A stretch of DNA of 64,000 nt from the NCBI GenBank assembly GCA_028277445.1, contig JANQGG010000032.1, positions 1 through 64,000 on the forward strand, written 5' to 3'. The first letter of the stretch is position 1. Each line of letters starts with the position of its first letter. Made by a program: the position numbers and the translations under genes. The notes under the pieces were generated by a model that was not told the DNA's origin, searched no databases, and was given only the letters and a program-made list of their open reading frames with translations. The stretch is from Chloroherpetonaceae bacterium (lineage in GTDB: Bacteria; Bacteroidota; Chlorobiia; Chlorobiales; Chloroherpetonaceae). Below, piece after piece: positions 5,030 through 50,126 of this stretch.

Positions 5030-6746
5030 GCTGTTTGATCAAATGCGCTTGCAACGATTTATGCTGAAGAACATTTTCCCGGCGACCGGTTTGAATTTCG
5101 ATTAACGTTGAACGCCCTGTTTTTTGAGCCTCCAGATAAAAATCTATGAATTCCCGGTTGGTTTTCGGCAACGCATAGCTTAAACAAGCCAATTCTGCAA
5201 TCGCTTTAAAATTTTGCTCCAGGGGCGTTTCAAAATAGGGCTCAAAAATATCGGTTTGTGAAGCGATGGGTAGAAATGAAAAAATCCCACCACCGCCATT
5301 ATTGATGATGATCAAAACGATTGGAGAAGTAGAGGATTTGATTTGGAAAAAGGCATTAAGATCGTGGTATGCCGAAAGATCGCCAATAACCAAGGTGGTT
5401 GGTTTGTTCAGGCCGTGAGCAAAACCCAATGCACTGGAAATAATGCCATCAATGCCGCTTGCGCCTCGGTTTGTACCAACAGGTACGATGCCGGGTTTTG
5501 GTCTGCCAAACATATCCATATCCCGCACCGGCATGCTGTTCGAAAGGAACAACGCCCCGTCTTCATGAAGATATTTTGAAACGATCATCGGCACGGAAAT
5601 TTCATCGGGCGCAATCTCTTCATTGAGGTAAGCCCCAAGGGTTTTACCGGCAATAGCATTAGCTTCTGAGATCATTTCAGCATTATATGTCATGGATTTA
5701 AAACGCTCTAAAACGCTATTGCAAAATACGCTGTACGGAACTTCAATGCTGTCTGTAAATTGATGGTAAGGATCGTTTCGAAACGGGTGATTTTTAATGA
5801 TGATTTTTTTCCCGGATTCGCATTTGGAAAAGAACTGTTGAATGCGTTTGGAAACCAACGACCCGCCAATATGAAGATAGACATCCGGTTGAAACTTGGA
5901 TTTAAACGCATTGGAAAGAAGCAACTGATCAAGATATGAGATATGATGTGAATGTTGCGTGAATCTTAACCCCGAAGAGGTATCGCAATAAAAAGGCATG
6001 TTTAAATGCAGGCACAGTTCCTTAGTGGTTTGAATATCTTCTTGCGACTCCAAAGCGCCGATCGTTATAAATGGTGATTTGGCTTCTGAAATCCAATCAA
6101 TAATGCACTGAATTGAGCTTGCTGGCAAATGTGAATGGCATGAGGTGTAAGGTAATTGGCTATCTTTCCATCTTGTCAAATGGCTGAGGTATGATGAATC
6201 GAATGTAGCTGGTTCAGGCAATAGTGGTTCACGAAACATACAGTTGAGATGAGCCACTCCGGCCGGCGTATTTGTGGCTTGATATATGGCTTGATCAAGC
6301 GTTGTTAGTACCATTTCAGGTGGTATGGCCTCATCCGGGCAAGGCATATCGAAATCCCATTTGGTATAATGCCCGAAAATACCCGGTTGGTTTATGGTTT
6401 GATTCGCACCGGTATCTCGAAGCTCAGGTGGCCGGTCAGCCGATAAAATCAGCATAGGGACTTTTGACATTGATGCTTCTACAACGGCAGGAAAATAGTT
6501 GGCGACTGCCGTACCCGACGTGCAAATTAACGGGGCAAGCCTGCCGCAGGCCTTTGCGTAACCCAATGCAAAAAAAGCCGCGGAGCGTTCATCGACAAAG
6601 AGTTTTGTTGAAGTCTTGGGATGCCTGGCAACAGCGCTGGTTAAAAACGTTGAGCGTGAACCCGGCGAAATACAAAATGTGTTGATGCCATTTCTCAAAC
6701 ACTCCTCGACAATTAGTAATGCCCAAACCGAGTTTATGTTTTGCAT
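5004..6746 (-). CDS. menD: SEPHCHC synthase (ThDP-dependent)
   Basis: This enzyme condenses isochorismate with 2-oxoglutarate (decarboxylating) to SEPHCHC, the committed step of the classical menaquinone route. The 580-residue protein has the standard three-domain ThDP architecture: an N-terminal pyrimidine-binding domain with ISPGSRS and the CTSGTAVANYFPAV stretch, and a C-terminal PP domain with GDLSAYHDLN followed by NNGGGGIFS, the ThDP/metal motif. It overlaps menF by 13 bp and menH by 26 bp, so the whole block should be one transcript. Motifs are unambiguous. Confidence 0.97.
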   Translation of the reverse strand: MQNINSVWALLIVEECLRNGINTFCISPGSRSTFLTSAVARHPKTSTKLFVDERSAAFFALGYAKACGRLAPLICTSGTAVANYFPAVVEASMSKVPMLILSADRPPELRDTGANQTINQPGIFGHYTKWDFDMPCPDEAIPPEMVLTTLDQAIYQATNTPAGVAHLNCMFREPLLPEPATFDSSYLSHLTRWKDSQLPYTSCHSHLPASSIQCIIDWISEAKSPFITIGALESQEDIQTTKELCLHLNMPFYCDTSSGLRFTQHSHHISYLDQLLLSNAFKSKFQPDVYLHIGGSLVSKRIQQFFSKCESGKKIIIKNHPFRNDPYHQFTDSIEVPYSVFCNSVLERFKSMTYNAEMISEANAIAGKTLGAYLNEEIAPDEISVPMIVSKYLHEDGALFLSNSMPVRDMDMFGRPKPGIVPVGTNRGASGIDGIISSALGFAHGLNKPTTLVIGDLSAYHDLNAFFQIKSSTSPIVLIIINNGGGGIFSFLPIASQTDIFEPYFETPLEQNFKAIAELACLSYALPKTNREFIDFYLEAQKTGRSTLIEIQTGRRENVLQHKSLQAHLIKQLEANGYPH

Positions 6747-49384: not shown

Positions 49385-49476
49385 AGGGTTAATATTCTTG
49401 ATTTTTGGTGCAAAGAGCCATAATCAAATGGGAAAAGCGGTTGTTATTTGTTACTAATGACGAGATTTTGTTTTTG

Positions 49477-49527
49477 TCGCTCCTGCGAAAGCAGGAGCCT
49501 ATAGATACCTGCCTGCGCAGGCATGAC
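49477..49527. repeat. Double-hairpin repeat element A
   Basis: This element begins GTC and ends GAC. It holds a 7-bp stem with GAAA loop (CTCCTGCGAAAGCAGGAG, 49480-49497) and a perfect 14-bp palindrome (TGCCTGCGCAGGCA, 49510-49523). Elements of this look are dispersed in several bacterial genomes; the copy number here cannot be known from one window. Confidence 0.6.
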
Positions 49528-49634
49528 CTGGTTGGATGATGAATTTTGAATTAATGAATTCGTTATTACCTATTTATCTTTTTGGTTATCGACGCCAAAT
49601 TTCCGATTACTAATGACGCATGAGTATAGCTATT

Positions 49635-49658
49635 AACAAGGGGTTGCAACCCCTTGTT
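49635..49658. repeat. Perfect 24-bp palindrome
   Basis: Positions 49635-49658 form an exact inverted repeat without spacer. It reads AACAAGGGGTTG and then its reverse complement, with TTTT after it. It could act as a terminator for rsmD-strand transcripts or be a repeat element. Confidence 0.7.
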
Positions 49659-49755
49659 TTCGAAACAATCACTGCCGCGTGTGATAAGAACACGTTATTA
49701 CCTATTTGTTTATTGCTAAGTATGAAAACTTCCAATGACGCATTTACGTTATTAG

Positions 49756-49828
49756 TCACCCTGAATTAATTTCAGGGTCTCAGAAAATGCCAATTTGGTT
49801 GAGATGCTGAAAACAAGTTACTAATGAC
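49756..49828. repeat. Double-hairpin repeat element B
   Basis: It starts GTCACCCTGAA with an 8-bp stem ACCCTGAA/TTCAGGGT (49758-49778) and runs through TCTCA and GAGATGCTGAAAACAAG to ACTAATGAC. The GTC...GAC ends and internal TCTCA/GAGAT pairing parallel element A, which suggests a related design. Confidence 0.55.
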
Positions 49829-49837
49829 AAAATTAGT

Positions 49838-49907
49838 GTTCCCTGAGCGTGCCGAAGGGAACATGATCTTCAAAATCGGCATTTCGGCAGGCTCCTTGCA
49901 CGATTTT
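49838..49907. repeat. Double-hairpin repeat element C
   Basis: A first stem GTTCCCT/AGGGAAC (49838-49862) is followed by an outer stem AAAATCG/CGATTTT (49872-49907) enclosing a GGCAGGCTCC loop. This looks like a third member of the hairpin-rich set in this gap. Confidence 0.5.
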
Positions 49908-50041
49908 ATTGTTGTTCATTACCTGTTTGTTTATTGTCAAATATTTTAGCTCGCAATGACCCGATTGGGAGCAAATGATAATAGACTAGTTTTTACCATC
50001 GGTAAGCTAACAAAAGAGTGATACGATAACCGTTGTGTTCT

Positions 50042-50070
50042 TTGTGATTTACTTAGCGAAACTTTATAGT
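50042..50070 (+). promoter_or_regulatory. Candidate coaD promoter
   Basis: TTGTGA (50042-50047) and TATAGT (50065-50070) are 17 bp apart, about 57 bp before the coaD ATG. Pattern match only. Confidence 0.35.
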
Positions 50071-50126
50071 TAAATTGGATTTCATAATTTTATGTTTAAT
50101 AACTTATAAAAACCTAGTGTTCATCT

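Follow-up and report, generated by a model that had tools for sequence, protein, structure and literature searches.

A chain of repeat units between rsmD and coaD

The window, by which we mean the whole stretch of DNA analysed (64,000 nucleotides from a Chloroherpetonaceae bacterium), contains a gap between the end of rsmD (49384) and the start of coaD (50127) that is free of genes and holds no open reading frame of at least 80 aa (49385–50126). Within this gap, four repeat units follow one another in a chain at 49451–49960, and the part that is repetitive, as judged by coverage from other sampled loci, is ~49447–49964. The left flank, 3′ of rsmD (49385–49446), is non-repetitive and uncovered by other loci, and the right flank, 5′ of coaD (49961–50126), is single-copy except for a few array-adjacent bases. 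Neither 49385–49446 nor ~49990–50126 has matches elsewhere in the sampled genome.

The array opens on the forward strand, on which all of its modules are placed, with TTACT followed by an AATGAC tag (49451–49461; tag 49456–49461), an edge read from the sequence that is also a unit boundary in the profile of homology breaks. Unit 1 has a body, A (49462–49561; represented in the sampled genome by 34 copies or fragments), with an inverted palindrome pair at 49476–49527 (GTCGCTCCTGCGAAAGCAGGAGC ... CCTGCGCAGGCATGAC), and a linker of subtype La (49562–49617) that runs from GTTATT through a hairpin to AATGAC. Unit 2 is made up of body B (49618–49693; 39 copies or fragments), which contains a perfect palindrome at 49635–49658, and a linker of subtype Lb (49694–49739; GTTATTACCTATTTGTTTATTG...TTCCAATGAC). 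Unit 3 is a truncated body C1 without a linker (49740–49828), full copies of which are found at other loci. Its first palindrome, GTCACCCTGAATTAATTTCAGGGT (from 49755), is retained, and its second is cut before CAGCATGAC and fused to ACTAATGAC; a C1 break before or after the tag recurs elsewhere. Unit 4 combines body D (49829–49913; 40 copies or fragments), with hairpins TTCCCTGAGCGTGCCGAAGGGAA and TCGGCATTTCGGCAGGCTC, and a second Lb linker (49914–49960; terminus TCGCAATGAC). The array also contains a 43-nt repeat pair, at 49697 and 49918, and copies of TTACTAATGAC are likewise repeated within the gap. The resulting order, A+La, B+Lb, truncated C1, D+Lb, is found at this locus only.

A first-pass annotation of the window had described the 742 bp as free of genes, as they are, and the 24-bp palindrome that it placed at 49635–49658 is exact. 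The three double hairpins that it listed are all present, the third at ~49838–49907, although two of the starts were one base off: the pair in body A lies at 49476–49527 and the GTC of the second at 49755. The 37-bp spacing that it noticed is also real, with ATTACCTATTTGTTTATTG at 49697 and 49918 (one mismatch) and AATGAC 37 bp after each (49734 and 49955). Chance does not account for the motif, the palindrome or the hairpins of C and D, since window shuffles gave 0.05 expected copies of ATTACCTATTTGTTTATTG and 0.00 of the C hairpin, the D hairpin and the 24-bp palindrome. A loose form of the core of A is at most weakly above chance (7 copies window-wide with 3 mismatches allowed, against 4.0 expected). 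ACTAATGAC alone is unremarkable across the window, with 5 near-matches against 4.5 expected, but 4 of the 5 lie inside the array.

Dispersal and anatomy of the units

The modules of the array are dispersed. With the 742-bp gap as query, at least 93 matching stretches were found in the bacterium's own genome (3.42 Mb, 70 contigs) when the best 40 of 178 first-look candidates were scored, and the true number is probably larger because only these 40 were scored. A pattern for the left end of the linker gave 164 matches in the same genome, against 14 for a reversed control. The motifs are thereby not unique to the locus. Uniqueness was one of the two outcomes that the first-pass annotation had named as refuting it, and its assignment of the elements to a REP/MITE-like class was right in kind, as they are both dispersed and non-coding.

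The stretches around the matches, merged into 87 segments (242,308 bases, window included), served as the module sample. A full unit consists of a body (a palindrome or an inverted palindrome pair, ~75–180 bp) followed by a linker of ~46–60 bp bounded by GTCATT...AATGAC. Pieces running from AATGAC to GTCATT group into body classes of narrowly defined length (~75, 85, 100 and 179 bp), and most of those running from GTCATT to AATGAC are short linkers, with a median of 41 from tag to tag. Linkers share their ends and a TTTGT segment and have several alternative cores, mostly self-complementary. They fold better than dinucleotide shuffles of themselves (n = 68), with a mean z of −2.0, 27 below −2 and 5 above 0; the Lb linkers, the type found in the window, are weak hairpins. 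The stems of La linkers are nearly invariant, and compensatory change in the linkers is therefore uninformative.

Seeds representing eight bodies and five subtypes of linker were used to place 243 body pieces and 153 linker pieces, fragments counted, in the sampled part of the genome. The same modules occur in other orders in 92 intergenic clusters within the 242,308 sampled bases, with more than one module in 82 of the 92 and a median span of 226 (maximum 775). Not one of the 92 cluster midpoints falls in an open frame of at least 150 codons, whereas at a distance of 500 nt, 82 of 98 control positions do. Polarity is nearly constant: neighbouring bodies and linkers point the same way in 182 of 194 pairs (body F was re-oriented before the count), and 8 of the 12 exceptions are an E1 end fragment joined to Lb or Le. 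Body and linker types assort, yet they do so non-randomly. For instance, the linker after body A is La in 13 cases, Lc in 7 and each of three other subtypes once, and the linker after body C1 is Lb in 20 cases, La in 3 and Ld in 1. A contig end is found no more than 150 bp from 32 of the 92 clusters, which are thus frequent breakpoints of the assembly. In one copy of body A elsewhere in the genome (contig C13), the body is split by a small palindromic element, CTTCTCCC..GGGAGAAGATTTAGATGAG (L007 ~469–516), which is flanked on both sides by a 7-bp TGATGAA repeat.

Joints between units

Breaks in homology between copies were used to locate the joints. In the tagged families C1, C2, E1 and E2, 46 of 74 internal breaks fall at a tag edge, where ~13.6 are expected. 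When the seven body families tested are pooled, tags account for 47 of the 128 internal breaks, against 14.9 expected, and the other 81 fall outside them; body A has 1 of 13 at a tag, and bodies B and D have no internal tag. A cruder all-against-all profile shows a modest excess at tags (4.7% vs 1.5% at distance 0).

Whole units are also present or absent between tags. Empty and filled sites were defined within this genome as two flanks that directly adjoin at one locus but lie apart at another, and 53 raw cases (20–260 nt) gave 39 distinct ones counted (40–260 nt). Their contents are 17 body+linker units, 7 linkers only, 4 bodies only and 11 others, one of which is a coding stretch. Both ends lie within 6 nt of ATGAC/GTCAT in 17 of the 39 cases, against a null with a mean of 2.26 and a maximum of 8 (200 draws), and in the other 22 one or both ends are without a tag; the events are not independent because the copies are related, and gain and loss are not distinguishable in such pairs. 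In one example, E and its linker sit exactly between a linker and body B, with AATGACG as the joint. MITEs have terminal inverted repeats with a target-site duplication; here AATGACG/CGTCATT ends exist, and any duplication would be inseparable from the tag itself.

AATGAC-type sites are thus joints, in line with the first-pass annotation, which had seen in them possible insertion targets; both the tag-edge breaks and the empty/filled cases bear this out. Its picture of nested elements does not hold. Units are gained or lost in tandem, and there is no fixed point at which hairpins break into the motif pair, because the pair GTCATT...AATGAC is itself the linker that separates the bodies.

Could such chains arise with no dedicated enzyme, if homologous or microhomology recombination between dispersed repeats, together with replication slippage, did all the reshuffling and the ATGAC joints were mere shared termini? 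Homologous exchange predicts that polarity is kept, as it is, the breaks outside tags fit such a process, and no transposase is linked to the units. However, spread to ~90 unrelated intergenic sites requires an insertion step, the excess of cases with both ends at a tag is left over, and near-identical C1 copies at many loci (several at 95–99%) suggest recent copying. We regard recombination acting alone as possible but rather unlikely.

History of the site and wider distribution

The best relatives by coaD are metagenome-assembled genomes of Chlorobiales and Chloroherpetonaceae. Of 84 loci in relatives, 60 have rsmD upstream of coaD on the same strand, and the gap between the two genes is at most 53 bp in 55 of these 60 (largest 310; 24 bp in the nearest relative, from the same family). 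Because the gap is short in relatives, the chain is most simply an addition, in keeping with the earlier proposal that two normally adjacent genes have been pushed apart by inserted material. A DNA search found the array absent in 40 of 40 relatives, and it is thus not conserved among them; base-by-base conservation as a structured RNA was the other outcome that the first-pass annotation had named as refuting it, and it too did not occur. These results also bear on whether the array could be a structured cis-acting RNA, an attenuator or regulatory element between rsmD and coaD. The strong hairpins on the coding strand would suit such a role. Its absence from all 40 relatives, an order unique to the locus and modules that recur in other contexts speak against it, and the best match to an Rfam family is far under threshold (23.5 bits against 66; E 0.45), leaving this reading barely credible.

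Beyond this genome, the linker pattern is at background: 60 other genomes gave 23 matches in total, at most 3 per genome, with 11 for the control, and the same comparison gave 105 against 3 in the bacterium's own genome. The C palindrome is absent in all 60. A core of it, GTCATSCTGAACTTGTTTCAGSATCT, searched for with one mismatch allowed, is found in 64 of 394 genomes of the phylum, this one included, and in 36 of 170 genera; the control is without any match in the table. The other sampled Chlorobiales genomes have none. Several of the genomes with the core have the C inverted pair with different flanks. A REP core that is near-identical in so many of the sampled genera while its surroundings differ, and so patchily across the phylum, suggests either horizontal spread or strong constraint. 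In another Bacteroidota genome, a C-type palindrome pair occurs as a tandem with a period of ~84 bp (G322:C4, 345900–347700, L283).

Among viral contigs, 27 stretches contain the exact core, either within phage-like genes or next to them, and no common gene was noticed in 19 of these 27 contexts and four ORF lists. In two IMG/VR contigs (L268 ~1480–1620 and L255 ~5950–6060), longer inverted repeats surround the palindrome pair, which looks as though it had been inserted into a larger palindrome. Plasmids gave two short partial matches to the C pair, both in Treponema plasmids, and none to the body A pair.

Comparison with known repeat systems

CGTC-tagged REPs have 8–9 bp stems, 4–5 nt loops, an unpaired CGTC (or TGTC/CCTC) tag at one end and mostly form head-to-head heterodimers; they have been reported from five phyla, including Chlorobi, Bacteroidetes and Spirochaetes, and are reported to lack a dedicated transposase (Di Nocera et al. 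2013, PMC3733652). The present array likewise has GTC-tagged palindromes in inverted heterodimers, with 8-bp stems and loops of 4–5 nt (A, GCTCCTGC/GAAA/GCAGGAGC; C, ACCCTGAA/TTAAT/TTCAGGGT). Bodies A, full-length C and full-length E are inverted pairs, as head-to-head dimers are, and here too no transposase gene is systematically flanked by the repeats. In the window, the first base of the tag varies and the tag is not strictly CGTC (TGTC in the first palindrome of A, GGTC in its partner, AGTC in C), and many linker or body ends elsewhere in the genome read CGTCATT. Unlike the REPs, these dimers lie within larger bodies bounded by AATGACG/CGTCATT, the bodies alternate with hairpin linkers, and bodies B and D are other palindromes.

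The Neisseria dRS3 is a CGTC-1 REP found in mosaic regions interleaved with other repeats (PMC3733652). NIMEs are described in PMC3898611 as intergenic arrays in which 30–160 bp RS repeats alternate with the short palindromes dRS3 in hundreds of copies, and dRS3 is given there as the target of a phage integrase. The array described here is similarly an intergenic array of alternating repeat families, for which unit polarity has been measured in the present genome. It differs in lineage and in having linkers of 46–60 bp with variable cores rather than a 20-bp dRS3. Reading the window array for the dRS3 pattern ATTCCC(N8)GGGAAT gave no occurrence; the array is therefore NIME-like in its working, yet not a NIME.

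With BIMEs and REPINs (GTAG REPs with RAYT), the array has in common inverted palindrome pairs, intergenic placement and mosaic clusters; its tag is GTC, not GTAG, and RAYT genes are not systematically flanked. Integron cassettes are polar units with a variable hairpin that has conserved ends (the attC boxes) and with a cassette ORF. The units here are also polar, and each ends in a variable hairpin with conserved ends, but the array has no ORF of at least 80 aa, it is dispersed and its ends are GTCATT/AATGAC rather than attC boxes. An ORF-less cassette system may nonetheless be imagined, in which a structure-specific recombinase would integrate the unit whole, in one polarity, at the 6–7 bp GTCATT/AATGAC tag; the same enzyme would then account for the mobilizer that is missing for CGTC-type REPs across phyla. 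This is speculative, and we consider it quite unlikely.

Search for a mobilizer

The REP-associated tyrosine transposases (RAYTs), whose subclasses are treated in PMC6006769, are proposed to move GTAG REPs, and the genome's own RAYTs might move the present palindromes in the same way. Own-genome searches gave four matches to PF01797 and eight RAYT-like matches to NF047646, at six loci. One intact gene of 198 aa (C49:56772–57362) has a long mosaic array directly upstream (L306 876–2046). This was the only adjacency among the five own RAYT loci compared with the modules; the other four are without modules nearby. The 12 top RAYT loci, nine of which belong to genomes that have the palindrome, and 24 homologue loci in other genomes likewise show no palindromes beside the gene, except for a single CGTC-like hairpin (L299) and scattered short matches. 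RAYT matches are nearly as frequent in chosen genomes without the palindrome (24 of 28; 152 matches) as in those with it (25 of 28; 193 matches), and one adjacency in six loci is unsurprising at this array density (~30%, a rough estimate with the gene number assumed). With the C49 adjacency unrepeated at other RAYT loci, own or foreign, we reject RAYT as the mobilizer, and a RAYT-driven origin looks very doubtful. The REP-associated transposase that the first-pass annotation had proposed looking for thus has no systematic link to the repeats. A separate RAYT-like gene of the LRLPDYDYSLPGAYFIT type (C15 ~65712–66386; L170/L311) is interrupted by TGA and holds short GC-rich repeats.

The Neisseria phage integrase acting on dRS3 belongs to the IS110/Piv family, and this family was examined because of that precedent. 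It is represented in the genome by one degraded fragment below the cut-off, around which no modules were found beyond chance matches of 11–16 nt, and it was likewise rejected. Searches with the RAYT and IS110 profiles, in this genome and at RAYT loci elsewhere, have thus found no mobilizer of the units.

Interpretation

The rsmD–coaD array is probably an intergenic mosaic element in which four non-coding units are chained together at the AATGAC/GTCATT tag. It is best read, by analogy, as a counterpart of the Neisseria NIMEs that is made largely of palindromes similar to those of the CGTC-tagged REP superfamily. Bodies A, C and E would be inverted pairs of members of this superfamily, or of palindromes very close to it. 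Chains would have grown as unit after unit inserted at the tag, with later recombination between chains reshuffling them. The units themselves would be non-autonomous, with a recombinase that is gone, unrecognised or supplied in trans. At rsmD–coaD, the chain has lengthened the gap, and apart from possible RNA hairpins it probably affects neither gene much.

What is novel is the unit rule: body plus linker, in one polarity, with ATGAC joints. A literature search that took in few subscription papers returned no mosaics in Chlorobi, later work on CGTC repeats or palindrome letters beyond PMC3733652, PMC3898611 and PMC6006769. The array suggests that NIME-like mosaics are not confined to Neisseria. 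Because it combines ~90 clusters and defined units with a single joint motif and with sites in both the empty and the filled state, this genome is a dense natural record of how CGTC-type REPs move, a question that can therefore be tested by strain comparison and biochemistry. Copies of the C core also differ sharply within one genus, with 91 in one genome (G331) and none in two others (G094 and G252), a natural contrast for finding the mobilizer.
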